From Ottowia thiooxydans DSM 14619 (GTDB lineage Bacteria; Pseudomonadota; Gammaproteobacteria; Burkholderiales; Burkholderiaceae_C), in NCBI RefSeq assembly GCF_000422885.1, contig NZ_AUGX01000024.1:1-64000 (forward strand): a stretch of 64,000 nucleotides of DNA, given 5' to 3'. This document shows, in pieces, positions 7,574 to 63,447 of this stretch. The notes beneath the pieces were generated by a model. It saw only the letters and a program-made list of their open reading frames with translations, ran no database searches and was not told the origin of the DNA. How positions within the stretch are numbered: the stretch's first letter is position 1; the number at the start of each line of letters is the position of its first letter. A program made the translations under genes and the position numbers.

Positions 7574-7596
7574 GGTTGAACATGCGTGGAGATGGC
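7574..7596 (-). promoter_or_regulatory. Shared cassette leader motif, copy 1
   Basis: On the coding strand of the downstream gene the block reads GCCATCTCC-ACGC-ATGTTCAACC, 22 bp before the start codon. See the finding on the leader family. Confidence 0.7.
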
Positions 7597-7723
7597 CGTC
7601 TTGATAAAACCCGCCTGGCAGGCAGGCCCGATCCATGAAACAATGACGGCGGATCGGATCGAACCCAGTGCACGGGCATGTGCAACATATATCCCCAACC
7701 CGATCCCCTTTTCGGGCAAAGAA

Positions 7724-7745
7724 AAAGGAACCCGCAGGTTCCTTT
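7724..7745 (-). terminator. Terminator of the 7766 gene
   Basis: Perfect AAAGGAACC/GGTTCCTTT hairpin with a four-base loop, T-rich on the minus transcript. Confidence 0.8.
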
Positions 7746-7765
7746 GTGTAGATCAAAAATGCTTG

Positions 7766-8224
7766 TCAGAATTTGGCAAGTATCGATTCGATTTTGGTGG
7801 ATTTCCAGTTGCCTGGTTCCTGGCCATCACCGAACTTCTCGTCCAGAAACTGGACAATTTCAGTCGTTGATTTGCTTTGAAGCGTTTGGAGCTCTTGGCC
7901 AGAAAGGCGTTTGAGAGCGAGACCGAGTGCGGCACCTAAAGCTACTGGAGGCAAGTCCTTTGGGGAGTCGACCTCGCGGCTTTGTGGCTTGCTCCTGTTG
8001 AGGAGCTGCTTCAGGCGGTTTGACGCGGTGCTGATCCGAATCAACGTGTCGACGAGGCTTGCGTACAGACGCGCCGTGAGGCGCAGCAGGTACACGGCAG
8101 TGACGAACATGGCGACCACGGCCAGCATCTTGGACACCGGGATGGTGAAGGACAGCGGGATGCCGATCGCGCTAAGGATCGAGGCGGCGAACGCCTGAAA
8201 GAACTCAAAAAGAGACTGGATCAC
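7766..8224 (-). CDS. Membrane protein of unknown function, 152 aa
   Basis: GTG start at 8224 with AGGAG about 7 bases upstream. The N-terminal 60 residues contain two hydrophobic segments ('FQAFAASILSAIGIPLSF' and 'KMLAVVAMFVTAVYLLRL'), followed by a cytoplasmic part that ends in 'LSGQELQTLQSKSTTEIVQFLDEKFG'. The gene at 42718-43056 has the same layout (membrane N-terminus, then 'LDGKF' tail) and may be a distant relative. Monocistronic cassette with shared leader and terminator. No function known. Confidence 0.65.
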   Translation of the reverse strand: MIQSLFEFFQAFAASILSAIGIPLSFTIPVSKMLAVVAMFVTAVYLLRLTARLYASLVDTLIRISTASNRLKQLLNRSKPQSREVDSPKDLPPVALGAALGLALKRLSGQELQTLQSKSTTEIVQFLDEKFGDGQEPGNWKSTKIESILAKF

Positions 8225-8249
8225 GTCGACTCCTGGGAGGCTGGCGCCT

Positions 8250-8271
8250 GGTTGAACATCCCTGGAGATGG
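8250..8271 (-). promoter_or_regulatory. Shared cassette leader motif, copy 2
   Basis: CCATCTCCAGGG-ATGTTCAACC on the minus strand, 26 bp before the GTG start of the 7766-8224 gene. Confidence 0.7.
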
Positions 8272-8340
8272 TGATTCGGTGAAAAGTGTCGTCGCCGGCG
8301 CATTCGGACTGGCCAGGCCAGCGCTGCCTTTAGAGCTGGA

Positions 8341-8363
8341 GCTATTTCCTTGGATGTTCAACC
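8341..8363 (+). promoter_or_regulatory. Shared cassette leader motif, copy 3
   Basis: GCTATTTCCTTGG-ATGTTCAACC on the plus strand, 32 bp before the start of the 8395 gene and facing away from copy 2. Confidence 0.7.
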
Positions 8364-8394
8364 AGTCCCATTGGGACTATCCAAGGAGTGAAGC

Positions 8395-9276
8395 ATGTCC
8401 AATGTTTCTCATGTTGCTGTGCGCGAGCCGAAGCAGTACAGCGTAAATGTTTGGGGTGACGATCAAGTTGCCATCGTCAAGTTCGAGATCAGTGACGAAA
8501 CGGTAATGCAGATTGTCGAGCTGTCGAAGTTGGCGGCTGCGCTCGATCTGACGGGCGTGAGCCGCACCAGCTGGCTGACCACGTACTACGAAGACGACGA
8601 AGAGACCGAGGTGCGAACGGAGGCCCCCGAGTTGGTGGTCAGCAAAGAAGGGTTCTACTTCCAGGCGATGCTGCGTCACGACGATGTGATGATTCAATCG
8701 GAGGAGCAGCCGATCGCTGATCTCGTCGCGCACTTCGAAGTGGAAGAGGCGCCCTCGCCGATGTCGAAGATCCAGGCGGCATTCGCTGACATCACCGTCG
8801 GCTACGAAAAGGGTCTCAGAGATGCCATGGAGTCAGTCGTTCTTGCCCTGGGCGATGGCGTGCTGCGCTCGAAGTTGAACGCGGCGGTTGACACGGTCTT
8901 AGATGCCTGCGCGAACAACGACCAGTTGGTCGAGGTCAATGAACCGGATGATCCTCTGGGCCGGGTTCAAGCGCTGCGCGATCTTGGCTTCGCCGTCGCC
9001 ATCTGGACGCCCGATGAGCTACACGAGGGCGTGGACATCAGCGTCTTGCAGGATTTGATGGTGGAGCGCGGTTCGAGCTACATCGACAGCACACGACCTC
9101 TGTCACCGTTCGTCGTGGTGCTTCGGGAAGACGATCTGCACAGCATCAAGTTTGCGTGTCAAGCTGAGGACCCTGAGCACGCCCAGGAACAGGCGGAGAA
9201 CGCCTACCCGGCGGCAACTGTGCTTTCCGTCGTGGAGGCGGATCTGGAGGCCGCCGGCGCTACCGGAACAAATTGA
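8395..9276 (+). CDS. Unknown soluble acidic protein, 293 aa
   Basis: ATG 8395 follows AAGGAG. The protein is acidic and has no signal peptide or membrane segment. I can see an N-terminal part with many Asp/Glu, a central helical region (DAMESVVLALGDGVLRSKLNAAVDTVLDAC) and a C-terminal part beginning 'GFAVAIWTPDELHEGVDISVLQDLMVERGSSYID', which looks like a small alpha/beta module. I do not recognise a family. It is a single-gene cassette with the shared leader, followed by a strong terminator. Confidence 0.7.
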   Translation: MSNVSHVAVREPKQYSVNVWGDDQVAIVKFEISDETVMQIVELSKLAAALDLTGVSRTSWLTTYYEDDEETEVRTEAPELVVSKEGFYFQAMLRHDDVMIQSEEQPIADLVAHFEVEEAPSPMSKIQAAFADITVGYEKGLRDAMESVVLALGDGVLRSKLNAAVDTVLDACANNDQLVEVNEPDDPLGRVQALRDLGFAVAIWTPDELHEGVDISVLQDLMVERGSSYIDSTRPLSPFVVVLREDDLHSIKFACQAEDPEHAQEQAENAYPAATVLSVVEADLEAAGATGTN

Positions 9277-9283
9277 TCGCATC

Positions 9284-9322
9284 AGCCCAGCTCACTCTTT
9301 TTTGGAGTGGCTGGGCTTTTTT
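9284..9322 (+). terminator. Terminator of the 8395 gene
   Basis: AGCCCAG-CTCACTC/GAGTG-GCTGGGCT hairpin followed by T residues. Confidence 0.85.
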
Positions 9323-9337
9323 GTGAGCAGGCAAAAA

Positions 9338-9361
9338 AAAGCCACCGATGAAGGTGGCTTT
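9338..9361 (-). terminator. Terminator of the 9371 gene
   Basis: AAAGCCACC/GGTGGCTTT hairpin. Near-identical GCCACC/GGTGGC terminators follow other cassettes at 58276, 59282 and 60021. Confidence 0.75.
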
Positions 9362-9370
9362 GGGATCAGG

Positions 9371-10294
9371 TCAGAACCAGAGGTTTTCTTGTTCCTTGGC
9401 TTGCTTCTGTTTGTAGGCTTCGCGCTTGGCGATCGCCTCCTCAGTCGCAGCTTTCATCTGCTCGTCCAGTTCGGGAGCACATTCACGCATGACTGCGGAA
9501 GCGATACCCCATGGACGCATGATCTTTCCACCAGACAGGCCTTGTAGCACGGACAAGCACTCTTGAGGGTAGATGCCGTTGACCTTACCAGCGTAGCGCA
9601 AGCCGAGGCCGGAGTGGTAGGCAACAACCAGGTCGGCCGCCAGCCGTTCGATGAAGGTGGCCATGACGCCGGTGAGCTTGGCACCTTCTTTTTTCTGCTT
9701 CGCGTTGAACTCGGCGATGTGCTCAGCCGCCATTGCCTTTGCCTTCTTGGCGAAGAGCAGCATGGCGTCGACATCGACCTTCGCTTCCTTCACGCGAATC
9801 TCTCGATTGGCGGCGGAAAGGGCTGCGGGATCGTTGGGAGCTTTTTCTGTCTGACTGATGTGAAAGATCGGGATCGAGTTGAACACCTGGATGGTCCAAG
9901 CGTCTTCATCGTCGTCGTCGAGCGGCCGCGGTGCGGACGACTCTGTCGACTGGGATTCATCGTCCTTTTTGTCACGCTTCTTGGCGACCCGACCCGCATA
10001 GATTGCGTGCCAGGCTTTCTCGCCTTTGCGCACGCTGTTGCCGGCGCTCGCGTGCTGGCTGTGGGAGCCGAAGCAGCCGCTGTACGTGGCTTTTGCTACT
10101 TCCATTTGGGCCAGCAGCACTGGGATGTTCACGCCGACGTAGGGCAGGCCATTGGCCTTTACGGGCATGAAGTCGACACCTTGCCAGGGGTGCGTGGCGG
10201 TGATTTTCTGGATGACCCAGAGTCGGGCCATGTCACAGAGACGGGTAGCCGCTTCGCGGCGGGCGTCGGTCGATTGGGATGAGGTTTTTGCCAT
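9371..10294 (-). CDS. ArdC N-terminal-like (ssDNA-binding) protein
   Basis: A 307-residue protein starting at ATG 10294 after AGGAG. The segment 'GLPYVGVNIPVLLAQ' with a later 'AGNSVRKGEKAWHAIYAGRV' resembles the N-terminal ssDNA-binding domain of ArdC antirestriction proteins (DUF1738: a 'GxxYxGxN' block followed by 'VRKGEKG'). The zinc-metallopeptidase half of ArdC is absent; instead there is an Asp-rich linker (DDDDEDAW), a helical domain and a Lys/Gln/Glu tail. A role in protecting incoming single-stranded DNA is an inference. It is divergent from the MoxR-like ATPase gene; the two share an intergenic region holding two leader motifs and the TTCGCGCGCGCGAA palindrome. Confidence 0.6.
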   Translation of the reverse strand: MAKTSSQSTDARREAATRLCDMARLWVIQKITATHPWQGVDFMPVKANGLPYVGVNIPVLLAQMEVAKATYSGCFGSHSQHASAGNSVRKGEKAWHAIYAGRVAKKRDKKDDESQSTESSAPRPLDDDDEDAWTIQVFNSIPIFHISQTEKAPNDPAALSAANREIRVKEAKVDVDAMLLFAKKAKAMAAEHIAEFNAKQKKEGAKLTGVMATFIERLAADLVVAYHSGLGLRYAGKVNGIYPQECLSVLQGLSGGKIMRPWGIASAVMRECAPELDEQMKAATEEAIAKREAYKQKQAKEQENLWF

Positions 10295-10316
10295 GGTCAC
10301 TCCTGAAGGAGAGAGG

Positions 10317-10339
10317 GGTTGAACATGGCTGGAGATAGC
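10317..10339 (-). promoter_or_regulatory. Shared cassette leader motif, copy 4
   Basis: GCTATCTCCAGCC-ATGTTCAACC on the minus strand, 23 bp before the 9371-10294 gene. Confidence 0.7.
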
Positions 10340-10367
10340 TCGAACAGGAAAAACCGGCTTTGCAGTG

Positions 10368-10381
10368 TTCGCGCGCGCGAA
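10368..10381. promoter_or_regulatory. TTCGCGCGCGCGAA palindrome, copy 2
   Basis: Here the symmetry extends to a perfect 20-bp palindrome (GTG...CAC), centred between two divergent cassette leaders. Confidence 0.65.
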
Positions 10382-10406
10382 CACGCCTGATGCATTTCGG
10401 GGGAAT

Positions 10407-10429
10407 GCCATTTCCACGCATGTTCAACC
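10407..10429 (+). promoter_or_regulatory. Shared cassette leader motif, copy 5
   Basis: GCCATTTCCACGC-ATGTTCAACC on the plus strand, 36 bp before the MoxR-like gene. Confidence 0.7.
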
Positions 10430-10464
10430 CCCCCCAGCCAAGCTGGGGCATCAGGAGTACTTCA

Positions 10465-11460
10465 ATGTTTGACGAGACAACTACTTTTCAGATTACCCAC
10501 GCGCAGGTTGGCGCGGATGAGCTGTTCGGGATCCAGGTGCCGGAGAGCCAGCGGGCCAACACCATGTTTCCGGTGAGGACGGGCGCGCTGGACGGCGTCC
10601 CTGAGATCGATATGAGCTACGTGTTCCGGCCGGATCAACTCGCCCTGCTGCGGTTCTTCTACCGCGGTGACGAGAAGGCGCTCATGCTGACCGGCGAGAC
10701 TGGGCCAGGCAAAACCAGCCTGGTGGAGCAGACAGCTGCTCGTACCAATTGGCCGGTCGTGGCCGTGGGATGCCATGAAAAACTGGAACTCCAGGAGCTG
10801 ATTGGCAGAATCACTATCACCGAAGCCGGATCCACAGGTTGGCAGGATGGACCCGTGATCGACGCAATGCGGCGCGGTGCGATTCTCTTGCTCGATGAGG
10901 GCAACTTTCTGGATCCTGGTGCGGTCGGTGGTTTGAACCGCGTGCTGGACACCCTGCGCAACGTCGGCGGTGCCAGCTACTCCATCCCGGAGACCGGCGA
11001 GACCGTCAAGGCCCATCCGGACTTCCGGGTGGCGATGACCGGCAACGCGATCGACGGCGCTGGCAAGTCGAACTACCGAGGAATCAAGCCCATGAACTTG
11101 GCGCTCCTCGATCGATTCACGCTGGGCATCTCGGTGGACTACCTACCGGCCGATCAGGAAGTGACGATGCTCCATCGGCGCTCGCCGCAGGTCCGCGAGG
11201 ACCTCATCAAGTTGATGGTGGAGGTGGCCAACGGCGTGCGCAACTCGTTTGCCAACGGCGACATCCGCTGCACAATGAGCACTCGCGTGTTGATCTCTGT
11301 TTGCGCCAAGCTGTCCACCTGCCCTGCGGAAAAGCAGCCCATGGTGTTGCTCCCGATGCTCAAGTCGACCATGCTCTTTCGCGTTTCAGTCGAAGACCGA
11401 ACCGCCATCGAGAACGTGGTGAATGAGATGGCGCAGCGCGACGGCGTTGTACTGAGCTGA
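10465..11460 (+). CDS. MoxR/CobS-type AAA+ ATPase
   Basis: The 331-residue protein starts at ATG 10465 after AGGAG. Walker A is GETGPGKT (about residues 76-83) and Walker B is 'AILLLDEGNFLDP' (about 138-150). The 'VAMTGNAID...GIKPMNLALLDRF' block supplies sensor 1 and the arginine-finger region of the AAA_5/MoxR class, seen in CobS, MoxR and gas-vesicle GvpN proteins. These ATPases remodel a partner, usually a VWA protein, but no VWA gene is present in the window. Plasmids of this kind often carry an orphan CobS-like gene of unknown role. It is divergent from the ArdC-N-like gene. Confidence 0.85.
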   Translation: MFDETTTFQITHAQVGADELFGIQVPESQRANTMFPVRTGALDGVPEIDMSYVFRPDQLALLRFFYRGDEKALMLTGETGPGKTSLVEQTAARTNWPVVAVGCHEKLELQELIGRITITEAGSTGWQDGPVIDAMRRGAILLLDEGNFLDPGAVGGLNRVLDTLRNVGGASYSIPETGETVKAHPDFRVAMTGNAIDGAGKSNYRGIKPMNLALLDRFTLGISVDYLPADQEVTMLHRRSPQVREDLIKLMVEVANGVRNSFANGDIRCTMSTRVLISVCAKLSTCPAEKQPMVLLPMLKSTMLFRVSVEDRTAIENVVNEMAQRDGVVLS

Positions 11461-11480
11461 GTCAGCTCGCCAGTGATCCC

Positions 11481-11510
11481 AAACCGCTCCTCCCCGGAGC
11501 GGTTTTTTTT
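11481..11510 (+). terminator. Terminator of the MoxR-like gene
   Basis: AAACCGCTCC/GGAGCGGTTT hairpin followed by eight T residues, ending just before the convergent topoisomerase gene. Confidence 0.9.
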
Positions 11511-11513
11511 GGC

Positions 11514-13529
11514 CTATGCCCGGACACCCTTGCTGGAGGGGCGGCGGGCTTTACCCGCGCGTGCCGGACGCCTGGACAGCTGAGCCTGTTCTGGCATCTG
11601 CTCGGGTGATGGCATCGCTGCCAAGGCGCTGCCATCCCTGGCGGCTTCGAGCACGGTCTTTTGCACCAGCATCTGCAGCTTTGCCCGGAAGTCGCTGTAG
11701 CTGAGCTGCCCATCCTTGATGCTGTCGAGCAGGCCTTCGAAGTAGCTGGTGAGATCCGGTACAGCGAGTTTGGGCGGAACGCATTTGATGTAGACCTCCG
11801 CCTTGGGTGTTGGCACATAGCTGGTCATCTTGCCGCTCTTGCTCTCGATCACGAACTCGTTCTGGATGATCTTGGCAATGAGCGGAGCACGCGTCGCAGA
11901 GGTGCCCAGGCCTTCCACCTGCTTGAGGTGCTTCTTGATGTTGGGGTCGGTGACGAACTGCCAGGCCTTTTCCATGGCGTCCAGCAGCGTCACCGGCGTG
12001 AAGCGCTTGGGGGGTTCGGTCTTTTTGGCTTTGACTTCGACCGGGCTGGCCAGGCCGGCTTCCCCGTCTTCGATCTGGGGCAGCTTGACCTCCTTCTCGT
12101 CGTCATTGCTGCCAAACAGTGAGCGCCATCCCTCATTGATCACCGCTTTGCCCGTGGCCTTGAAGCTGTGCTCGCCGATCGGCGCCACGATCGATGTGCT
12201 CCAGTACTCGTGGTTGGGGGCGAACTGCGCCACGTACTGGCGGACGATGAGCGCGTAGATGTCGGCGTCGCGCTTGGGCAGCTCACGGATCGACTTGTGG
12301 GCCAGCAACGGAATGATGGCGAAGTGCTCCTTTAGCTTGGCGTCGTTCCACGCTGCGGACTTCTGACTGGGATCCAAGGGGGTGTTGAACTTGAACGGCT
12401 GCCCTGCGCCCAGATTGGCGCAAACCGCTTCGATGGTCTTGGCGGCTTTCGGCCACTGGTCGGTGGGGGCGTACTGGCAATCGGTGCGGGGGTAGGACGT
12501 GAGCTTGTGGGTCTCGTAGAGCGCCTGGGCGGCTTGCAACACGGCGTCCGGCGAGTAGCCCATGCGCGCGGCCGCCTTCTGCAGCTCGGTCAGGCTGAAC
12601 AGCAAAGGGGGCCCATCTGCCTTGCGCTGCCTGGTCACCTGCAGAGTCGATGTCTTGCCACTGCAGGACCTGGCCACGGCTTGCGCGTATTCGCGGGAAA
12701 GGAGCAGCTGTCCAGATGGGTCGAACTCTGCCCTTCCCTCTGCATCCTTCGGGCGCTGCCAGGTCGCCTGAAAGGCTCCCTTGCCCTGCACGTTGATGGT
12801 GGCGACGATGCCAAAGTGGTCGATAGGTACGAAGTTGCGGATTTCGTTCTCGCGTTGAACGATGAGGCCAATGACTGGGGTCATCACGCGCCCAAGGGCC
12901 AGGATGCCCTTGTGGCCGCGCTTCCACCACAGCGTCGAATAGGCCCGCGTGCCGTTGATGCCGACTCCCCAGTCGGCTTCGGCCCTGCAGAGCGCGGCCA
13001 GGCCGAGCAGCCGATAGTCCTCGTTGGACTGCATCTTTCGCCATGCGTCCCGAATTCCCTGGTCGGTCTGTGCGTGCAACCAAAGGCGCTTGGTGGGACC
13101 CTTCCACGAGAAGCGCCTGAGGATGTTGTCGACGATCAGTTGACCTTCCCGGTCGGGGTCGCCGGCGTGCACGACCAGGTCGGCGCGCTTGAGCGCTTCC
13201 GAGATGTATTTGAGGCGGTCGATCACGCCGTTGTCAGGCGTTGCGCGGCCCTTGCCCTTGCCCTTGCCCTTGTTGGCCCGCGGTGCCCACTCCAGCCGAT
13301 CAGGCAGGCAGGGTAGGACCTCCAGGCGCCAAGGGAACTCGAACTGCTGGTCGTAGTGCTCTGGCTCGGCGAGCTCCAGCAGGTGCCCCAGGGCGCCCAC
13401 GACAACGACATCACCCACCCGTTGTCCGAGGCCCGCCGGCTGGACAGGGTTGCCTGTGGACTGGCTGATGGCGTTGGCGATGTCCCTGCCCATGGCAGGC
13501 TTCTCGGCGATAACAAGAGTCTGAGGCAT
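11514..13529 (-). CDS. topB: Type IA DNA topoisomerase III
   Basis: 671 residues from ATG 13529. The N-terminal TOPRIM domain has the conserved start 'TLVIAEKPAMGRDIA' and the metal-binding 'VHAGDPDREGQLI' (about residues 117-129). The catalytic tyrosine is in 'LTSYPRTDCQYAP' (about 343-355). Length and order match plasmid TopB/TraE enzymes, which decatenate plasmid DNA during replication and transfer. The C-terminus is a short basic tail without zinc fingers. It has its own promoter, which carries the TTTGCAAT motif of the tra promoters. Confidence 0.95.
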   Translation of the reverse strand: MPQTLVIAEKPAMGRDIANAISQSTGNPVQPAGLGQRVGDVVVVGALGHLLELAEPEHYDQQFEFPWRLEVLPCLPDRLEWAPRANKGKGKGKGRATPDNGVIDRLKYISEALKRADLVVHAGDPDREGQLIVDNILRRFSWKGPTKRLWLHAQTDQGIRDAWRKMQSNEDYRLLGLAALCRAEADWGVGINGTRAYSTLWWKRGHKGILALGRVMTPVIGLIVQRENEIRNFVPIDHFGIVATINVQGKGAFQATWQRPKDAEGRAEFDPSGQLLLSREYAQAVARSCSGKTSTLQVTRQRKADGPPLLFSLTELQKAAARMGYSPDAVLQAAQALYETHKLTSYPRTDCQYAPTDQWPKAAKTIEAVCANLGAGQPFKFNTPLDPSQKSAAWNDAKLKEHFAIIPLLAHKSIRELPKRDADIYALIVRQYVAQFAPNHEYWSTSIVAPIGEHSFKATGKAVINEGWRSLFGSNDDEKEVKLPQIEDGEAGLASPVEVKAKKTEPPKRFTPVTLLDAMEKAWQFVTDPNIKKHLKQVEGLGTSATRAPLIAKIIQNEFVIESKSGKMTSYVPTPKAEVYIKCVPPKLAVPDLTSYFEGLLDSIKDGQLSYSDFRAKLQMLVQKTVLEAARDGSALAAMPSPEQMPEQAQLSRRPARAGKARRPSSKGVRA

Positions 13530-13543
13530 ATCGATCCACCATT

Positions 13544-13562
13544 GATAATTGCAAACATTGTA
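13544..13562 (-). promoter_or_regulatory. topB promoter: -10 TACAAT followed by TTTGCAAT
   Basis: On the minus strand TACAAT (13562-13557) is a good -10 and GTTTGCAATTATC follows it immediately, covering the expected start of transcription. Confidence 0.65.
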
Positions 13563-13640
13563 TGGATAAAGTACAAGAAACACCAAGCCGGCCGGGGTTG
13601 GAGACCAGGTTCAAGGGTTTCGACGGCTTTATTTTTTGAT

Positions 13641-13663
13641 GCCATCTCCAGCCATGTTCAACC
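13641..13663 (+). promoter_or_regulatory. Shared cassette leader motif, copy 6
   Basis: GCCATCTCCAGCC-ATGTTCAACC, 47 bp before the 13710 gene. Confidence 0.7.
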
Positions 13664-13709
13664 GGATGGCTGTCTGCTCGACACCATCGTCAATCTCAAG
13701 GAGATCACC

Positions 13710-14222: not shown

Positions 14223-14263
14223 GGATTGATGGGTGGAGCGTGTTCCACGCTCATGTGAGTCCC

Positions 14264-14297
14264 AAGGCCATCTTCTTTGAAGATGGCCTTTCTTTTT
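14264..14297 (+). terminator. Terminator of the 13710 gene
   Basis: AAGGCCATCT/AGATGGCCTT hairpin followed by a T-rich run. Confidence 0.8.
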
Positions 14298-14336
14298 GGG
14301 CGAGTCGGTCCGAGAGCACACCAGTTTTCAGGACTG

Positions 14337-57435: not shown

Positions 57436-57657
57436 TCAGCTACTTGCCGGCGATGCGGTCTCGGGCGAGGTGGGCACTGGAATCCAGTTGGGCCGTCCGC
57501 CGTCTTCATCACAGCCGTTGCAGCGCATCGACTTGTCGTAACTGTGGCCGCACGATTCCCAGGCGTTGAGCTCGACGCTCCACGCGACAGGCCCATCGAA
57601 GACAACGTCGTCACTGCCGCAGCTGGCGCAAACGGGTTTTTCTCGAACGGTGGTCAT
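57436..57657 (-). CDS. Small zinc-binding protein, 73 aa
   Basis: ATG 57657, one base after the stop of the upstream gene. 'VCASCGSDDVVFDGPVAWSVELNAWES' and 'MRCNGCDEDGG' give two CxxC pairs in the style of small zinc ribbons, with the same 'CxxCGSxxVxxDGxxxW' start as the 62802 protein. Function unknown. Second gene of a two-gene cassette. Confidence 0.65.
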   Translation of the reverse strand: MTTVREKPVCASCGSDDVVFDGPVAWSVELNAWESCGHSYDKSMRCNGCDEDGGRPNWIPVPTSPETASPASS

Positions 57658-57658
57658 G

Positions 57659-58207
57659 TCAGGCCTCCTCGGCTTCTTGCTCAAGCTCGATCTCGCGCCG
57701 GTACTCGCGTAGCGTGCGCCACTGGTCCGGCCTGGCCGTAAAACCCTGGATGAAGGCCTGGTAGCCCGCAGCTGCTTCGTAGGTCGAAAACCTGGCAATC
57801 GCCTCGCAAGGCTTGTCCTGCTCCTGGCGCTCCACGTCGAAGGTGTCTTTGCCCGACTTGATGTAAAGGATGGGCACGCGGTAGTTTCTGCAGCGCCACA
57901 GCTCATGGCCGGACAGCGCGTGGACGATGCGCACGATGCAATGATCCAGGATCGGGGCGCCGCCGGGTGACGAGATCAGCACATCGTCATCGCGCAGCGG
58001 CTCCAGCAGCAGCGGGACACGGATGCTTCCGGTACTCCGCCCGACGTAGCCGCAGACATCGTTTTCTTCGCCCCAGTCCCTGCCATTCTGATCGCCGTAG
58101 AACAGGCGGAGCACGGTGCCTTGGACCCTCGCTTGCTCCAGGATCTTGCGAACACGCAAAGGGGTATCCCGATGAAAGGTGGTCTCAAGTTTGGTGGTGT
58201 TGTGCAT
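57659..58207 (-). CDS. Accessory protein of unknown function, 182 aa
   Basis: ATG 58207. 'FHRDTPLRVRKILEQARVQGTVLRLFYGDQNGRDWGEENDVCGYVGRSTGSIRVPLLL' (in parts), 'GGAPILDHCIVRIV' and 'ELWRCRNYRVPILYI' are features of a phage/plasmid family I have seen but cannot name; the rest of the protein is helical and acidic. Cassette with shared leader 35 bp upstream. Confidence 0.7.
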   Translation of the reverse strand: MHNTTKLETTFHRDTPLRVRKILEQARVQGTVLRLFYGDQNGRDWGEENDVCGYVGRSTGSIRVPLLLEPLRDDDVLISSPGGAPILDHCIVRIVHALSGHELWRCRNYRVPILYIKSGKDTFDVERQEQDKPCEAIARFSTYEAAAGYQAFIQGFTARPDQWRTLREYRREIELEQEAEEA

Positions 58208-58241
58208 GTGTGCACTCCTCTTGAAGGGCCATTGCTGGCCC

Positions 58242-58264
58242 GGTTGAACATGAGAGGAGATCGC
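58242..58264 (-). promoter_or_regulatory. Shared cassette leader motif, copy 8
   Basis: GCGATCTCCTCTC-ATGTTCAACC on the minus strand, 35 bp before ATG 58207. Confidence 0.7.
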
Positions 58265-58275
58265 ACAAAAGGGAA

Positions 58276-58305
58276 AAGCCACCAATGCTTGCGCACTGGT
58301 GGCTT
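58276..58305 (-). terminator. GCCACC/GGTGGC cassette terminator
   Basis: AAGCCACCA/TGGTGGCTT hairpin directly upstream of leader copy 8; on the minus transcript it ends the preceding unit. Confidence 0.65.
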
Positions 58306-58472
58306 GGGCAATCAAGGCGTGAGGAACTGACCGGCCCTGCAGCGATCCGGCTCGAAGGCCTTCGGGTGGTACTCCCAGGACGCCGAAACCTGCGGGCGAA
58401 AAAAACCGCCGGCGTGATGCAGGCGGTTTGGGGTTCGTGGACTTCTGGCCGTGCGCAGACTACTATCCAAGG
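58306..58472. other. Short gap with a minus-strand coding-like fragment
   Basis: A minus-strand frame here ends in 'SWEYHPKAFEPDRCRAGQFL', which looks like the C-terminus of a real protein, but it has no visible start and is cut by a hairpin. It may be the remnant of a former cassette. Confidence 0.35.
58403..58429 (-). terminator. Terminator-like hairpin
   Basis: AAACCGCC/GGCGGTTT hairpin with A-run on the plus strand; probably ends the 58603 transcript. Confidence 0.7.
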
Positions 58473-58676
58473 ATGGAAAGCAGAGCACGACCAGCGCTGA
58501 CGGTCATTCGAGGTGGAAGGACCGACTTCTTGTCATCAATAGAGCTGACGCGGCTTCTCGAAGAAGTCGATGTCACAGAGGCATTGGAGTACTTCCGCAG
58601 CCTCAAGCGGCAGCGTAGCCGACCGGCCAATTCTCCGCTAGCAGTGCTTCACGCAACGACGCCGGCAGGCGATTGA
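58473..58676 (+). CDS. Possible small protein, 67 aa
   Basis: ATG 58473. 'SRARPALTVIRGGRTDFLSSIELTRLLEEVDVTEALEYFRSLKRQRSR' (in parts) is helix-forming and looks natural, but there is no clear Shine-Dalgarno, and its last 74 bp overlap the end of the convergent 58603 gene. Weakly supported. Confidence 0.35.
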   Translation: MESRARPALTVIRGGRTDFLSSIELTRLLEEVDVTEALEYFRSLKRQRSRPANSPLAVLHATTPAGD

Positions 58677-58860
58677 TCATGACCGGGTCGCTGACACAGG
58701 TGAGCGCGATTCGGACCACTGAGCACACTTGGCCAGGCGCGATCAACTCGCGCAGGTTGGCGAACTCCTGGTATTCCTGATCTGTTGCATTGCACAGCCA
58801 GCGTTCGAACATCGCATGAAAGCGTGAGCGCTGATTCGGATTCAATTTATCGAAAGCCAT
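58603..58860 (-). CDS. Small accessory protein, 85 aa
   Basis: ATG 58860. 'FDKLNPNQRSRFHAMFERWLCNATDQEYQEFANLRELIAPG' and 'MINRLPASLREALLAENWP' are two helical parts without known motif. Single-gene cassette: shared leader 18 bp upstream. Confidence 0.65.
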   Translation of the reverse strand: MAFDKLNPNQRSRFHAMFERWLCNATDQEYQEFANLRELIAPGQVCSVVRIALTCVSDPVMINRLPASLREALLAENWPVGYAAA

Positions 58861-58877
58861 GGGGGTCACTCCATGTG

Positions 58878-58900
58878 GGTTGAACATCGCTGGAAATAGC
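58878..58900 (-). promoter_or_regulatory. Shared cassette leader motif, copy 9
   Basis: GCTATTTCCAGCG-ATGTTCAACC on the minus strand, 18 bp before ATG 58860. Confidence 0.7.
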
Positions 58901-58918
58901 GGCGTTGAGAAAGTGCGA

Positions 58919-59218
58919 CTACCAGTCGTAGAGGTACAAGCCATCGATCTCGTCGCCTGCCGAGTCGAAACGAAGCCAGTTTTCACCTGGGTAGGCGGAC
59001 TGGAACCACTCCACGATCGGGTCCATCCATTCAGGCCATACGACGCTTTGTGGCTTTTCGGTCCCGATGAACACGAACCCGCCATGCTCATACTTGGCGA
59101 CCATGTTCAACTTCGACAGCTCGTCGAAGTCTTCTGCGGACGGCGCATGCGCCGTGGAGATCACGGGCACCAACAGCTGGAATTTGACGCGCTGGGCGGT
59201 CTTGGGTTTTTTGGCCAT
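58919..59218 (-). CDS. Small accessory protein, 99 aa
   Basis: ATG 59218 after AAGGAG. Basic start (MAKKPKTAQR) then 'VKFQLLVPVISTAHAPSAEDFDELSKLNMVAKYEHGGFVFIG' and an aromatic C-terminus 'YPGENWLRFDSAGDEIDGLYLYDW' (in parts). Not recognised. Cassette with leader. Confidence 0.65.
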   Translation of the reverse strand: MAKKPKTAQRVKFQLLVPVISTAHAPSAEDFDELSKLNMVAKYEHGGFVFIGTEKPQSVVWPEWMDPIVEWFQSAYPGENWLRFDSAGDEIDGLYLYDW

Positions 59219-59247
59219 AGCGGCTCCTTGGGAAGGACTTGCGTCCT

Positions 59248-59270
59248 GGTTGAACATCCCTGGAGATCGC
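59248..59270 (-). promoter_or_regulatory. Shared cassette leader motif, copy 10
   Basis: GCGATCTCCAGGG-ATGTTCAACC on the minus strand, 30 bp before ATG 59218. Confidence 0.7.
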
Positions 59271-59281
59271 GGCCATGAAAA

Positions 59282-59312
59282 AAGCCACCGCCCGCGGATG
59301 CAGGGGTGGCTT
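59282..59312 (-). terminator. GCCACC/GGTGGC terminator of the 59326 gene
   Basis: AAGCCACC/GGTGGCTT hairpin with A-run; followed at once by leader copy 10 of the next cassette. Confidence 0.7.
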
Positions 59313-59325
59313 GGGGTTCGGGGGA

Positions 59326-59628
59326 TCACTGCGAGAGCAGTTGGTCGATCGAGCACAGGTGCAGGTTCTTTTCCCCAGGCTCATAGCTCAAGACGGCACT
59401 CACTGCGGTGATAGAAGGCGCCAAGCCGCCGCCTGGATGCTCCACGACGCACCGCACCTGTGCGATGCCACGCTCGTCCTTGTGGACATCAAACATGCGT
59501 TTCTGCACCCCTTCCCTGAGCACGAGTTCGCGCTTGTAAGGAATCAGCCAGCCATCACCTCGCACCAGGGAGTAGCTGACGAAGGCGTTGCCGTCCACCT
59601 CTGTGGCCAGCCAAAGCTCCTGCAGCAT
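59326..59628 (-). CDS. Small accessory protein, 100 aa
   Basis: ATG 59628 with GAGG 8 bases upstream. Structured alpha/beta-looking sequence: 'LWLATEVDGNAFVSYSLVRGDGWLIPYKRELVLREGVQKRMFDVHKDERGIAQVRCVVEHPGG' (in parts). No family recognised. Its 5' end lies within the 3' end of the 59555 gene (74 bp overlap), so translation is probably coupled. Confidence 0.6.
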   Translation of the reverse strand: MLQELWLATEVDGNAFVSYSLVRGDGWLIPYKRELVLREGVQKRMFDVHKDERGIAQVRCVVEHPGGGLAPSITAVSAVLSYEPGEKNLHLCSIDQLLSQ

Positions 59629-59956
59629 GGCGGGAACCTCTGGTGCTGCGGTGGGCGCGGCAGCCCTTGTTCAGGTCAGTGAGCATGGACAGTAGCGAAA
59701 GACATAGCGTGCGCAGCTGCTGCGCGTCGGACGTTGCTTGCGGAGCCGTTGCAGCCTCCGCGCCTTCGTCCATGACGGGGATGTCGAAGTGCTTGGCCAG
59801 ATCCGCGAATCGCGCCGGCACGGTCGGTGTGTATTGAGGGTCCGTGGCGAGGTTGTCGCCGTCCACAACGCACACATCGGCATGAGGGTCGGCTATGAAG
59901 TCGGCGACACCGCCGATGACGTACACGAATACGCGGGGTTGATCTCTCAGGGACAT
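59555..59956 (-). CDS. Accessory protein of unknown function, 133 aa
   Basis: ATG 59956. 'RVFVYVIGGVADFIADPHADVCVVDGDNLATDPQYTPTVPARFADLAKHFDIPVMDEG' (in parts) has a pattern also seen in small phage/plasmid proteins; the C-terminal 40 residues (rich in Arg, Gly, His) overlap the next gene out of frame and look less natural. A frameshift near 59640 cannot be excluded. Cassette with leader. Confidence 0.6.
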   Translation of the reverse strand: MSLRDQPRVFVYVIGGVADFIADPHADVCVVDGDNLATDPQYTPTVPARFADLAKHFDIPVMDEGAEAATAPQATSDAQQLRTLCLSLLSMLTDLNKGCRAHRSTRGSRHAAGALAGHRGGRQRLRQLLPGAR

Positions 59957-59985
59957 GGCTTCTCCTGTTTCGATGCTGGGCATCG

Positions 59986-60005
59986 TGTTGAACATGAGAG
60001 AGATG
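59986..60005 (-). promoter_or_regulatory. Shared cassette leader motif, copy 11
   Basis: ACATCTCTCTC-ATGTTCAACA, the most divergent copy, 30 bp before ATG 59956. Confidence 0.6.
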
Positions 60006-60020
60006 TCCAGAGGAAGGAAA

Positions 60021-60037
60021 AGCCACCGTGGGTGGCT
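60021..60037 (-). terminator. GCCACC/GGTGGC terminator of the SRAP gene
   Basis: AGCCACC-GTG-GGTGGCT hairpin with A-rich flank, 8 bp beyond the SRAP stop. Confidence 0.65.
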
Positions 60038-60044
60038 CTGGGGG

Positions 60045-60986
60045 TCAGGCTGCTAGCTTGTGGGCGTAGTACGCCGGCGCCTTGTCATCGAGCAAGGCGT
60101 CCAGCTCCTCCAGGCTGCGGCCCTGGGGTGTCAGCCAGGCCTGGACGTTCTCGGGTCTCAGCTGGACGATGCAGCGATCGTGGCCAGCTGCTGCAACCTC
60201 GGGGGGAGGCTCGTCGGTGATTGCGGCGAACGACCAGAGGTCGTCTTCATCTGAACCAGCCGGCGGCATCCAATGGGAGTACAGGCACGCTACGAGCATG
60301 TCTTGTGCTGGCTCTGGCTGGAACTCAAGCACCACGTTGCTGCCATCGCGCGAGACGTTCTCGTAGAAACGGGTCACGATCATGACGCCATGGGTCGCAC
60401 CAAACTGCTGATTCCAAAATCCCCGCAAGTTGTCACGCCGGGCGTTGTACGTTCCTGGAAAACGAGTGTCGTAATTGACCGGCTTGCCGGCCGGCCGACA
60501 CTGGTAGCGCATGGGCCTGACGATGGGCTCACCGTTTTCGAACATGAGCACCGGCGCCCACCAGCCCGGAAAAATTCTGCTGTCCCCGGCGCTCAGATCC
60601 TCGCGTTGGAGGCGCTTGAGCTTGGCCAGCGCCTGCTCAATTTTGGTGGTCGCAATCCGTTCATCGTCGGCGGCCTTTTTGGTCGGCTTGTTCTGCAATG
60701 AGCGCTGTGCGTCAGCCAGGCGCTGCCGCTGCTTGAACAGATCTTGCTCAGTCTCGACCTTCTGCGCCGCATCGAACTCCTCGATCAGCGCACGGATCTC
60801 GGCCAGGTCTTGAGCGTGCGACTTTGCGAACTGCGCGTCCATGGCCTTTGGCGTTCGCAGCACGGGCTTGGGCTTGTTCTTGCGGCGCAAGTACAGCTCG
60901 AAAAAGTCCTTGATGGACAGGCGTGACTTCGGAAACAGGTTTTGGAACGCCTTGAATTCCGCACGCACAGCAGCAGAAAAACACAT
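60045..60986 (-). CDS. SRAP-domain protein (HMCES/YedK-like abasic-site shield)
   Basis: 313 residues from ATG 60986, so that the invariant catalytic Cys2 follows the initiator Met (MCFSAAV). Other active-site residues are in place: Asn in 'TYNARRDNL' (about 180), Glu in 'RFYENV' (about 208) and His in 'AGHDRCIVQL' (about 269). SRAP proteins bond covalently to abasic sites in single-stranded DNA and shield them. Residues 20-150 hold a long helical insertion absent from YedK (222 aa). It is divergent from umuDC with one LexA box between, which suggests SOS control and a role in protecting single-stranded plasmid DNA. Confidence 0.88.
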   Translation of the reverse strand: MCFSAAVRAEFKAFQNLFPKSRLSIKDFFELYLRRKNKPKPVLRTPKAMDAQFAKSHAQDLAEIRALIEEFDAAQKVETEQDLFKQRQRLADAQRSLQNKPTKKAADDERIATTKIEQALAKLKRLQREDLSAGDSRIFPGWWAPVLMFENGEPIVRPMRYQCRPAGKPVNYDTRFPGTYNARRDNLRGFWNQQFGATHGVMIVTRFYENVSRDGSNVVLEFQPEPAQDMLVACLYSHWMPPAGSDEDDLWSFAAITDEPPPEVAAAGHDRCIVQLRPENVQAWLTPQGRSLEELDALLDDKAPAYYAHKLAA

Positions 60987-61015
60987 CACATCCCCTTTGT
61001 GCCGGGCGTAAACTA

Positions 61016-61031
61016 CTGTGATTATGCACAG
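61016..61031. promoter_or_regulatory. LexA box between SRAP gene and umuDC
   Basis: CTGTGATTATGCACAG fits the CTGT-N8-ACAG consensus of LexA boxes. It covers the umuD start codon and lies 30 bp upstream of the SRAP start, so one site could repress both directions. Confidence 0.8.
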
Positions 61032-61446
61032 TGTTACACCCATAGCAGACAAGCCTTGCATCTTGACATTGGTGCCGGCCAGCGTTCACGCGGGCTTTCC
61101 GTCGCCGGCCGAAGACCATGTGGGCAAGCCTCTGGATCTCAATGACTTGCTGGTCACCCATCCACAGGCCACGTTTATGCTCAGTGTCGCGGGTGACTCC
61201 ATGGTCGAAGAAGGCATTGACGATCGGGACATCATCGTGGTCAACCGGGCGATCAAGCCACGTCATGGCCACATCGTTGTCGCCATTCTCGATGGCGAGT
61301 TTGCGGTCAAGAAACTGTACCAACGCGCGGGCCGCGTCAAGCTGCTCGCAGGCAATCCGACCTACCCACCCATCATCCCCGGTGATGGCCAATCGCTGGT
61401 GGTATGGGGTGTTGTCACCAGCAGCATCACGCGCTTTGCGATCTAG
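61024..61446 (+). CDS. umuD: UmuD-like translesion polymerase subunit
   Basis: 140 residues from ATG 61024 (an in-frame GTG at 61018 is possible). Self-cleavage site Ala23-Gly24 in 'VHAGFPSPAEDHV', Ser59 in 'VAGDSMVEEGI' and Lys96 in 'GEFAVKKLY' match the UmuD/LexA catalytic dyad; the distance from the start to the cleavage site agrees with E. coli UmuD (24/25). Activated under SOS, it joins UmuC to form polymerase V. The LexA box overlies the start codon, an unusual position. Confidence 0.92.
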   Translation: MHSVTPIADKPCILTLVPASVHAGFPSPAEDHVGKPLDLNDLLVTHPQATFMLSVAGDSMVEEGIDDRDIIVVNRAIKPRHGHIVVAILDGEFAVKKLYQRAGRVKLLAGNPTYPPIIPGDGQSLVVWGVVTSSITRFAI

Positions 61447-61447
61447 C

Positions 61448-62746
61448 ATGTATGCGCTTCTCGACGCGAACAATTTTTACGCCTCCTGCGAGGCTGCGCT
61501 GCGGCCGTCCCTGATTGGGCGGCCCGTGTGCGTGCTCAGCAACAACGATGGTTGCGTTATCGCAAGGTCAGAAGCCTCAAAAGCCATGGGCGTGAAGATG
61601 GGACAGCCGTACTTTGAAGTGCGGCATCTCGAAGCTGAGGGCCTGGTGTTTCTGAGTCCGAACTTCACGCTGTATGGATCCATGTCCGATCGCGTCATGA
61701 GTTTGGCGGCCGCGCTGGGGCCCAGCATGGAGCGCTACAGCATCGACGAAGCCTTCGTCTCCCTGCACGGTGTGCGCGGTGATCAGACCAAGAGAGCGCG
61801 AGCCATTCGAGCCAGAATTTTGCAATGGACGGGCATTGCTTGCGGCGTTGGAATCGCTCAAACGAAGACTTTGAGCAAATTCGCAAACCACGTAGCGAAA
61901 CAGGCCGATCGCAAGCCTGGGAGCTACCCCCGCGAACACGCTCAGGTGTGCAACCTGGGCGTCCTGTCGCGTGCAGACGTTGAGGAGTTGCTTGCTGCGA
62001 CCGAGGTGGCTGAGGTGTGGGGTGTCGGCCGTCGCATCGGCGAGCAGCTGCGCGCCGACGGCGTGATGACGGCGCTGGATCTGGCTCGACTTGACCCAGC
62101 GATCGTGCGCAGGCGCTGGTCGGTCGTGCTGGAGCGCACGGTTCGTGAGCTCCAAGGCGAATCTTGCATCGAGCTGGAAGATGCGCCACCCGCCAAGCGC
62201 GAGATCGCCGTGACGCGCTCGTTTGGCCATCCCGTGACCGACGTTGAACCCTTGGTAGAAGCGGTCAGCACGTTTGCATCTCGGGCAGCTGAAAAGCTGC
62301 GCAAGCAGTCCAGCGTCGCCGGCCTGGTGCATGTGTTTGCTCACACTTCCCCTTTCCGACCAGGTCCTCGCTGGGCCCGATCGCTGTCGGTGCCGCTACG
62401 CCGGCCGACAGCAGACACAGCCGAAATCACTGAGGCCGCTGTGATGGGTTTGCGCCTCATGTTTGAGCCCGGCTACATGCTGGCCAAGGCCGGGGTGATG
62501 CTGTGCGACTTGTCCAGCGAATTACATCAGCAGTGCGAGCTGGACCTGGAAGTGGAAGCACCTGTTCGTGATCGCAGCAAACTCATGAAGGCCATGGATC
62601 AGCTCAACACGCGGTACGGCCGGGGCACACTGCAGGTTGCTGCGATGGGTCAACAGAACCAGCTGCAGGCTTGGCAGATGCGCCAGGAGCGGAGGACACC
62701 GCACTACACGACAGACTGGCGGCAGATCCCGATCGCGCGGGCCTAG
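61448..62746 (+). CDS. umuC: UmuC-like Y-family DNA polymerase
   Basis: 432 residues from ATG 61448, one base after the umuD stop. Y-family catalytic residues: Asp6 in 'MYALLDANNFYASCE' and 'YSIDEAFVSL' (Asp/Glu near 98-100). 'LSNNDGCVIARSEASKAMGVKMGQPYF' (in parts) and 'GVGRRIGEQLRADG' (helix-hairpin-helix) are typical, and the C-terminal little-finger region ends in a UmuC-type tail. Carries out error-prone synthesis over lesions. A longer upstream frame is only umuD out of frame. Confidence 0.95.
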   Translation: MYALLDANNFYASCEAALRPSLIGRPVCVLSNNDGCVIARSEASKAMGVKMGQPYFEVRHLEAEGLVFLSPNFTLYGSMSDRVMSLAAALGPSMERYSIDEAFVSLHGVRGDQTKRARAIRARILQWTGIACGVGIAQTKTLSKFANHVAKQADRKPGSYPREHAQVCNLGVLSRADVEELLAATEVAEVWGVGRRIGEQLRADGVMTALDLARLDPAIVRRRWSVVLERTVRELQGESCIELEDAPPAKREIAVTRSFGHPVTDVEPLVEAVSTFASRAAEKLRKQSSVAGLVHVFAHTSPFRPGPRWARSLSVPLRRPTADTAEITEAAVMGLRLMFEPGYMLAKAGVMLCDLSSELHQQCELDLEVEAPVRDRSKLMKAMDQLNTRYGRGTLQVAAMGQQNQLQAWQMRQERRTPHYTTDWRQIPIARA

Positions 62747-62765
62747 AGCGCTTCGCCAAAAGAAA

Positions 62766-62796
62766 AACCCCGGCAGCAAAAAGCTGCGCGGGGTTG
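62766..62796. terminator. Bidirectional terminator between umuC and the 62802 gene
   Basis: CCCCGGCAGC-AAAAA-GCTGCGCGGGG hairpin with A-rich left and T-containing right flank. Confidence 0.75.
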
Positions 62797-62801
62797 GTTG
62801 T

Positions 62802-63407
62802 TCAGTGGTCGTCGACCGGCGGTTCAATCGTGTCGGTGCGGTACTCGGCCAAGAGCTCAACGGCTTCATCACCATGCGCGGCCAGCACATGGACCGAGCC
62901 TGTCGTTGCGGTTTCCCAAAGGGCCAACAGATCGTCCACTTCGATGACTTCACTTTCGATGTAGTAACTCTCGTGCTTGCGCATGTCAGATGCCCAAAAG
63001 GAGCCCGAAGAGGCGATCACCAAGGCACCACCTTGCAAGCGGTACTCGTCCGTTTCAGGACCCCACCAGGCACCGAACGAAATTGAGGCTTCTGCGAGTG
63101 CCAGGGACTGAATCGCCTCTCGAACGGATTTGATTTTTTCGATCAGATCCACATCGACATCGAACGAGCAATAGGGCGGCGGATCGCTTAAATCCAACGT
63201 CGCATGCGCCGGGGTGAGCACGGTGAACTTGTGCTCCTTCCACTCTGGGTTGAACTCCGACCGCCCGCAGTTTCGGCACAAACAGCTTTCGTTGTAGATC
63301 TCCGAACCTGCACGCCACTCGCCTGCTGCTCCGTCGAACTCCAGCGAGCCATCGGCCACCAATTGGTTGCTGCCGCAATGCGGGCAGACTGGTCTTTCCT
63401 TTTTCAT
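62802..63407 (-). CDS. Zinc-ribbon accessory protein, 201 aa
   Basis: ATG 63407. N-terminal zinc ribbon 'CPHCGSNQLVADGSLEFDGAAGEW...ESCLCRNCGRSEF' (the same style as the 57436 protein), followed by an acidic globular region with 'SISFGAWWGPETDEYRLQGGALVIASSGSFWASDM'. Role unknown. Single-gene cassette with leader 18 bp upstream and terminator shared with umuC. Confidence 0.7.
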   Translation of the reverse strand: MKKERPVCPHCGSNQLVADGSLEFDGAAGEWRAGSEIYNESCLCRNCGRSEFNPEWKEHKFTVLTPAHATLDLSDPPPYCSFDVDVDLIEKIKSVREAIQSLALAEASISFGAWWGPETDEYRLQGGALVIASSGSFWASDMRKHESYYIESEVIEVDDLLALWETATTGSVHVLAAHGDEAVELLAEYRTDTIEPPVDDH

Positions 63408-63424
63408 GGTCACTCCTGATCCAT

Positions 63425-63447
63425 GGTTGAACATGGTCAGAGATAGT
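63425..63447 (-). promoter_or_regulatory. Shared cassette leader motif, copy 12
   Basis: CACTATCTCTGACC-ATGTTCAACC on the minus strand, 18 bp before ATG 63407. Confidence 0.65.

Follow-up and report, generated by a model that had tools for sequence, protein, structure and literature searches.

The 64,000-nucleotide (nt) stretch of DNA analyzed here (the window) comprises bases 1–64000 of a 90,207-bp contig, C18, from the 7.05-Mb, 78-contig genome of Ottowia thiooxydans DSM 14619, and carries a short repeated block, the leader, in front of twelve accessory genes. Judged by its gene content, C18 is a conjugative plasmid, with F-type transfer genes for TraU (28019–29203), TraG (43376–46555), and a coupling protein (54525–56432), a replicase-family Rep with PriCT (19146–20441), KorA-like (4157–4444) and KorB/ParB-like (4448–5593) genes, a gene for SSB (6472–6918), and a second ParA/ParB pair. 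One further leader copy lies on contig C65 (10,255 bp), which is most likely part of the same plasmid, because a single contig (C27) of a related Ottowia genome (G019) has stretches matching both C65 and the start of C18.

Copies and anatomy of the leader

The typical leader presents, in order, a TTT, an arm of sequence ATYTCY, a spacer, a box, a hairpin of variable sequence, and a Shine-Dalgarno sequence (SD). The box, ATGTTCAACC, was matched 17 times in the window with at most one mismatch, as compared to 2.8 on average and never more than 7 in 100 shuffles, and 12 of these 17 matches are leaders, 11 of them exact and one (59986) with a single mismatch. An earlier note on this DNA had named twelve genes preceded by a shared block that lies in the same orientation relative to the gene on both strands, and is absent in front of tra, rep, and par genes, and these statements were borne out. 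All 12 window leaders lie in sense, 17 to 70 nt upstream of a start codon with an SD, eight on the minus strand and four on the plus strand, divergent pairs included, and none was found upstream of the genes recognized on this plasmid as tra, rep, par, or ssb. Five window matches with one mismatch (7536, 28815, 31875, 32940, and 59103) were rejected as leaders, being without the ATYTCY arm.

The whole plasmid carries 18 leaders, 17 on C18 (five beyond the window) and one on C65; G019 carries 21, of which 17 match C18 copies. Statistics given below refer to 22 different leaders, namely these 18 and four extra ones from G019, with the 17 G019 orthologues of C18 copies excluded. Also excluded from counts were two relaxed-pattern matches with a different box (C18 25741 and G019 C26 16807) and, on plasmids considered further below, EbN1 17742, which is without the arm, and Cupriavidus 30782, where the SD-like match was judged to be chance.

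Nine bases of the box, AUGUUCAAC, are unchanged in 22/22 leaders. Arm and box are spaced as ATYTCY, 4 nt, and ATGTTCAAC(C), with a 3-nt spacer in three of the 22; of the 4 to 5 bases given earlier, the 4 nt stood, and the copy at 60004 has 3 nt. When the 22 leaders were aligned on the arm, T occupied positions −15 to −13 in 21, 20, and 18 leaders, respectively, G occupied −3 in 19, and C occupied −2 in 20. A TTT falls inside −19 to −10 in 20/22 leaders, as compared to 6.5% of random 10-mers from the contig, and farther upstream, from −60 to −20, no position exceeded 0.56 bits (n = 22). The earlier note had missed the TTT and GC positions, the arm–SD pairing and the hairpin, the six copies beyond the window, and the coincidence of terminator T tracts with the TTT of the next leader.

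Base pairing of hairpin and arm

A hairpin stem of at least 4 bp begins within 2 nt after the box in 21/22 leaders, as compared to 30% of random contig sites, and a stem of at least 5 bp in 15/22, as compared to 12.7%; shuffled leaders gave 4.3 ± 1.9 and 1.6 ± 1.2 of 22, respectively. Allowing G-U pairs on the sense strand raised the number of stems of at least 4 bp from 16 to 21, whereas allowing A-C, the equivalent of G-U on the other strand, raised it only to 17. The larger gain from sense-strand G-U, together with kept pairing, is the hallmark of an RNA read from the coding strand, which does not in itself imply that the RNA is regulated.

Pairing is possible between the ATYTCY arm, along with the bases that follow it, and the GGAG of the SD, along with the bases that precede it. 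Contiguous arm pairs beyond the CTCC:GGAG core numbered 29, as compared to 12.0 ± 3.8 after arms were exchanged among the 22 leaders (p ≤ 5e-5), and seven leaders had at least three such extra pairs (1.0 ± 0.95 after exchange). Paired cells between arm and SD numbered 40 versus 28.8 ± 3.9 (p 0.003), and the summed duplex energy was −198 versus −160 ± 7 kcal/mol, so that exchange cost 38 kcal/mol (5 standard deviations). Pairs were counted by script because MAFFT fails to align the variable hairpins. Pairing is clearest in CTCCTTGA..TCAAGGAG (83521) and CTCCGAGC..GCTCGGAG (89212), with further clear cases in ATCTCCTGC..GCAGGAGAT (G019 32073) and TTCCTTGG..CCAAGGAG (8344). A leader's own arm was among its three best partners in 8/22; elsewhere there is mostly the 4-bp core or a local hairpin, and pairing is weak at 10410 and 65652. 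Predicted folds leave the box mostly unpaired, between arm and hairpin. The DNA thus encodes a short RNA fold in which an AUYUCY arm, with three to four further bases, can pair with the SD, the box AUGUUCAACC lies between, and a hairpin of free sequence follows. Base pairing kept while sequence changes is the mark of a structured, SD-hiding RNA leader, and it supports the reading as an mRNA leader, one of the possibilities raised in the earlier note. That note had also considered module-by-module gene acquisition, which is unlikely given that the hairpins vary in sequence with unchanged geometry and pairing and that separate arrays of the same design occur on other plasmids.

The window leaders differ in how this design is realized. 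On the minus strand, 7558–7611 precedes a gene without assigned function (7193–7552; relatives on Caballeronia and Paraburkholderia plasmids) and has the box, ATCTCC, TTT, and a hairpin CTTCC:GGAGG that includes the SD. Another such gene (7766–8224) follows the minus-strand leader 8230–8287, with box, arm, TTT, a 4-bp hairpin, and a fold CTCC-GGG / CCC-GGAG, and a third (8395–9276) follows the plus-strand leader 8326–8388, which reads CTTGG, box, AGTCCC..GGGACT, and CCAAGGAG and ranks 2/22 in arm pairing. The ArdC-N gene (9371–10294) is preceded on the minus strand by 10300–10354, with box, arm, TTT, and a weak hairpin requiring G-U (arm rank 16/22), and the MoxR/AAA_5 gene (10465–11460) on the plus strand by 10392–10457, with box, ATTTCC, TTT, and a hairpin CCCCAGC:GCTGGGG (arm weak, rank 18/22). 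Also on the plus strand, 13626–13703, with the box and ATCTCC:GGAGAT, precedes a DUF736-like gene (13710–14222); its product has no Pfam match, a tblastn relative annotated DUF736, a low-confidence structure prediction with a pLDDT (predicted local distance difference test) of 39, and no relatives among viral contigs. The plus-strand leader 14322–14424 of a small gene (14430–14630; DUF308 below cut-off) pairs ATCTCCAGG:CCTGGAGAT and ranks 1/22, as does the minus-strand leader 58215–58279 of a gene without assigned function (57659–58207), in which CTCCTCT:AGAGGAG encloses the hairpin GGGCCA:TGGCCC.

The remaining four window leaders are on the minus strand. The leader 58869–58915, before a gene without assigned function (58603–58860), has the box, ATTTCC, TTT, a weak arm, and a hairpin that includes the start codon; 59224–59285, before a DUF5983 gene (58919–59218), has the box, arm, and hairpin AGGAC:GTCCT. 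Another gene without assigned function (59555–59956) follows 59962–60022, with the box ATGTTCAACA, a 3-nt spacer, and a hairpin CGATGC:GCATCG, and a gene for a cysteine-rich product without a Pfam family (62802–63407) follows 63413–63462, with the box, ATCTCT, and TTT and without a hairpin of at least 4 bp beside the box. Beyond the window, the leader at C18 65652 (locus L009, 3167–3655) is followed by a frame of about 20 codons, recognized by eye. The stop of this frame overlaps the beginning of a RelE-family gene, and translational coupling to that gene is possible.

Leaders in other genomes and on other plasmids

The exact box occurs 36 times in the source genome, 17 times in plasmid leaders (16 on C18 and one on C65) and 19 times elsewhere, which exceeds a reversed control (three in the whole genome). 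None of these 19 copies is preceded by ATYTCY, leaving chromosome-wide use of the box unsupported; in 10 of them the box encodes Met-Phe-Asn in the longest open frame (tied with another frame in four of the 10). Three arm-less chromosomal copies (loci L002, L005, and L008) lie about 20 to 30 nt before apparent start codons, one of which belongs to what we take, by eye, to be an IscR-like gene.

A sequence model of the Ottowia leaders recovered 18/18 on its own plasmid, having been trained on these sequences, and in the GTDB family (299 genomes) matched only the source genome (17) and G019 (20) at an expectation value (E) ≤ 0.001. In a collection of genome contigs, 23 stretches had the box pattern, five of them from Ottowia sp. 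GY511; these five hold 16 sites, of which 14 have TTT, GC, and GGAG with a start. The remaining 18 stretches are single sites, and 0/18 combine these three marks. Viral contigs gave four single matches, none with all three marks, and a further viral-contig search gave none.

Arrays of the same design were found on other plasmids. The Ottowia sequence model applied to 609 kb of other plasmids gave only two weak matches; the better (E 0.062) is positioned like a leader, ahead of the Paraburkholderia relative of gene 86405–87106, and the other (E 2.9) is chance-like. The other plasmids were reached via the MoxR/AAA gene beside leader 10410, and their choice is biased toward MoxR carriers because the search started from that gene. 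On plasmid 1 of Aromatoleum aromaticum EbN1 (NC_006823; hereafter EbN1), the motif GCAG-N(2-4)-YAAC occurs 59 times in 165.9 of 207.4 kb, and 22 of the 59 lie at most 45 nt before GGAG and a start, as compared to 0 to 3 for seven scrambled motifs. Relative to an ATCTC-like arm, all of the aligned EbN1 leaders (21/21) have TT at exactly −19 and −18 and a C at −1; the distance from TTT or TT to the arm is 12 nt in Ottowia and 17 nt in EbN1. The EbN1 box sits between the arms, in the same place as the Ottowia box, and its conserved sequence is different, although boxes such as GCAGTTCAACC look, by eye, like ATGTTCAACC. Arm exchange (n = 21) again weakened pairing, from −176 to −156 ± 5.5 kcal/mol (p 0.002).

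With a sequence model of the 21 EbN1 leaders, 32 sites were recognized at E ≤ 1 on the same plasmid. All 11 non-training sites (E 1e-6 to 0.015) lie in sense before genes, 10 at most 90 nt from an annotated start and the eleventh before a MoxR gene whose homology extends upstream of its annotated start. Of the training sites, 18/21 lie at most 90 nt from an annotated start, the distance is 358 nt for one, and for the other two no start falls within 400 nt in the set of coding sequences considered. EbN1 genes with leaders include those for MoxR, VWA, DUF3150, DUF4942, and PRTRC ParB and ThiF proteins. The same plasmid has a type IV CRISPR (csf) locus (NC_006823 200490–207296), in which the gene beside csf4 (200490–201137) has a leader.

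Smaller sets were found on other plasmids. In Cupriavidus malaysiensis unnamed1, GCAATG-N(0-2)-CAA(C/A) occurs 10 times in about 163 kb, with eight of the 10 copies followed by an SD-like match and a start; seven were judged leaders, four with a GCCCG..CGGG-type hairpin. In Paraburkholderia fungorum and Caballeronia SBC1, 15 of 79 upstream regions were picked by eye as similar and then folded, and uncounted examples were seen by eye on Burkholderia vietnamiensis pBVIE01, Methylibium RPME01, and Pseudomonas plasmids. Orthologous VWA leaders of Pseudomonas and Burkholderia keep pairing with different bases (ATCCCCGAGTG..CACTCGGGAGAT and ATTCCCCTTC..GAAGGGGAT), in orthologue alignments too few for counts. 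The Caballeronia and P. fungorum plasmids showed no clear leader before MoxR or VWA genes, and none was found before P. fungorum ArdC. The EbN1 model had no matches on other plasmids (646 kb) or in 399 genomes of the order, which contained no known positive; the EbN1 pattern matched in 120 of these 399 genomes, with at most three matches each and no arrays. Sequence models, which hold no base pairs, did not unite the arrays into a single RNA family, and common descent is unproven because the model of one array misses the others. As far as sequence comparison goes, the leader design appears to be common to these plasmids and the leader sequence not, and either common descent or repeated invention could account for this.

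A probable translational regulon and alternative explanations

The block is probably a structured mRNA leader of a plasmid-wide translational regulon, read by one trans factor. Each copy would form the 5′ untranslated leader of an mRNA, with the fixed TTT probably marking a transcription start just upstream. Pairing of the arm with the SD would block ribosomes from starting, and a common factor, be it a small RNA or an RNA-binding protein of plasmid or host origin, would read the box beside the hairpin and lock or open the fold. One factor reading all copies would thereby switch 18 separately placed accessory genes together at translation. A repressor is the tentatively favored sign of control; if so, its absence in a new host would permit accessory proteins, ArdC and MoxR among them, to be made in a burst after entry, followed by shut-off. 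More tentatively, the accessory (“establishment”) genes of large conjugative plasmids in Beta- and Gammaproteobacteria may form a post-transcriptional regulon with tens of copies of one RNA leader per plasmid, a family-specific unpaired lock, and a dedicated factor that is left behind when the DNA is transferred. On entry, the RNA-level repressor would then be missing and a burst of translation would follow, from either strand and with no special promoter.

Several observations weigh against a regulated, SD-hiding leader. Fifteen of the 22 leaders have fewer than three extra contiguous arm pairs, leaving the CTCC:GGAG core that any such SD would give; in two of these 15 (7593 and 58897) the local hairpin itself includes the SD or start codon. 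Leader 63444 is without a hairpin beside the box, and 65652 has GGAA instead of GGAG. Across all GGAG genes on the plasmid, SDs hidden by at least 7 bp numbered 21/73 versus 23.0 after shuffling, and at 8 bp or more 14 versus 11.2, with a similar excess in a control set (10 versus 6.0). The same count at 7 bp or more (observed/shuffled) was 57/43.4 for EbN1, 24/20.9 for Caballeronia, 10/8.0 for P. fungorum, 27/29.0 for Cupriavidus, 14/11.3 for Methylomonas, and 11/13.9 and 18/13.3 for controls, and is not discriminating. No RNA-binding translational regulator domain was found in the 67 of 137 called frames scanned with Pfam, and an NCBIfam scan of ten frames named no such regulator; RelE- and PIN-type toxins, a TnpB-like protein, and many small proteins without a family are present on the plasmid. 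Finally, no exact antisense of the box was found outside leaders on five plasmid contigs (two genomes).

The failure of these scans to reveal a trans factor would suit a passive expression cassette, in which the leader tunes or insulates translation, as a read-through buffer or 5′-end shield, with no regulating factor. Several leaders also come immediately after a terminator-like hairpin and share with it a T tract, which forms their TTT (e.g., 58305–58276). Terminator-like sites numbered 12 in 7000–14800 (8.4 ± 2.8 in shuffles) and eight in 57500–64000 (5.5 ± 3.0), so that the earlier claim that most units end in their own hairpin is upheld only weakly; the T tract at 58276, 59282, and 60021 is the TTT of the next leader. 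A passive hairpin requires no invariant unpaired sequence, however, and AUGUUCAAC is invariant in 22/22 leaders, with EbN1 conserving another box in that place; we regard a passive cassette as unlikely, if worth keeping in view.

A DNA element is likewise doubtful as the main explanation. Here TTT, GCCATYTCC, and the box would together serve a plasmid-specific sigma factor or activator as its promoter or operator, consistent with the fixed TTT and GC in Ottowia and the exact TT and C in 21/21 EbN1 leaders. Two sigma-70-like sites were found in 7000–14800, 57500–64000, and locus L010 3000–9800, which together cover 16/18 leaders (1.5, 1.4, and 1.8 expected, respectively), and neither precedes a leader, as a dedicated sigma factor would allow. 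The best matches across the 22 leader regions had two to three mismatches to a −10 and one to two to a −35, with no spaced pair near leaders. The fixed-spacing TTT is the sole candidate transcription signal in the scanned stretches, and of the dedicated promoter suggested earlier, it is the TTT that fits, whereas no sigma-70-like site does. In the divergent pairs 8269/8344 and 10336/10410 the arms are only about 75 bp apart, so that promoters would lie very close. Kept pairing of arm and hairpin is unexpected for double-stranded DNA sites, and one fixed promoter geometry fails to fit both families at once because the distance from TTT to arm differs (12 versus 17 nt).

As a special form of the preferred translational regulon, a trans-acting small RNA carrying GGUUGAACAU could open or close all leaders, an invariant unpaired stretch beside structure being a usual target of small RNAs. 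The lack of an exact antisense copy outside leaders, noted above, argues against an origin on the five plasmid contigs, a host small RNA not having been searched for; many sites with one mismatch or G-U exist, none standing out by eye as intergenic and shared. We consider this form distinctly improbable.

A single-stranded DNA promoter of the Frpo type, active on the entering strand, had also been suggested, and it is very improbable. The leaders do fold as DNA (6 of the 18 folded, z −1.5 to −4.1), and ArdC, SSB, and umuC-type genes lie nearby, as in leading regions. Copies occur on both strands, also as divergent pairs, and not all of them can be on the transferred strand, since only one of the two strands is transferred (oriT was not located). 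Moreover, no −35/−10 was found in the stem, with no −10 closer than two mismatches and no spaced pair, and the TTT lies outside the arm–hairpin fold. Translation of a leader peptide Met-Phe-Asn from the box ATG, which would read MFN in 22/22, can be dismissed almost entirely, as bases free to vary silently (TTC, AAC) are unchanged in 22/22, the frames run by eye into, out of, or past the gene, and EbN1 boxes (GCAGTTCAACC etc.) are without ATG.

Hiding of an SD is itself familiar: riboswitches, ribosomal-protein leaders, and phage translational operators combine a conserved loop with a helix covering the SD. The present leaders differ in that one small element recurs 18 to 32 times per plasmid and, among the leaders scanned, had no Rfam match. 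Searches with Rfam 15 (4227 families, gathering score) gave no match in the window and three on plasmid loci L095, L097, L117–L119, L108, L111, and L031 (two group II intron parts and one toxic small RNA), none at a leader; L009, L010, L094, L032, L096, L110, and L112–L114 were not scanned whole. AcaCD of IncA/C plasmids offers a parallel as the activator of a plasmid-wide regulon of separate operons, with the difference that it binds DNA and is not an RNA leader. No report of the present element was found in open-licence literature of PubMed Central (PMC), and as far as could be checked, tens of copies of one leader acting as a plasmid-wide regulon are new. Apart from F-like and pLS20-like plasmids, little has to our knowledge been described of how large conjugative plasmids coordinate the switch-on of their dispersed accessory and anti-restriction genes. 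A short searchable leader would mark such regulons directly and flag dozens of uncharacterized genes as coregulated, and it suggests that plasmid-wide control may be exerted on translation, each plasmid family having a lock sequence of its own.

The nearest published parallel is the pLS20 family of Bacillus, which has repeated regulatory sequences, EGeRS1 and EGeRS2, before scattered establishment operons that include ardC; EGeRS1 is predicted to fold and has a mechanism that is stated to be unknown, and EGeRS2 acts via a repressor protein (PMC8708921). Both cases have one sequence repeated before separate accessory operons of a conjugative plasmid as a plasmid-wide regulon. Unlike the leaders here, EGeRS measure 400 to 600 bp, occur in five copies on pLS20, and belong to Gram-positive bacteria, with no small SD-hiding hairpin in the part of the description available; over the span from −60 to −20, the profile given above shows no conservation of the kind expected of a 400–600 bp upstream region like that of EGeRS1. 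Frpo and ssi elements (F, ColIb) are likewise folded elements before leading-region anti-defense genes, and in a leading-region survey, families for anti-defense, SSB, and related functions were all on the transferred strand only (PMC11541004). As described there, Frpo/ssi need −35 and −10 elements in a DNA stem on the transferred strand, whereas no such elements were found in the present leaders, which occupy both strands.

Additional features of the plasmid were observed. A perfect 14-bp palindrome, TTCGCGCGCGCGAA, occurs six times on C18 (window 7113, 10368, 25002, and 51557; C18 66533 and 86290) and once on C65 (L094 4169), with 6/7 copies at most 250 bp upstream of a called gene, and is probably the operator of a plasmid repressor, e.g., the KorA-like or KorB/ParB-like protein. 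An identical short reading frame lies in opposite orientation at each end of C18 (window 4–192, plus strand; C18 90014–90202, minus strand), probably a repeat where the assembly broke. C65 (L094 8010–9503) encodes a 497-amino acid protein with a Cas12f1-like/TnpB TNB domain, and a TnpB-family gene is also present on EbN1 plasmid 1. Between rep and tra, window 22336–24242 holds cargo, a fatty-acid desaturase and a LuxR-type regulator with an autoinducer-binding domain.

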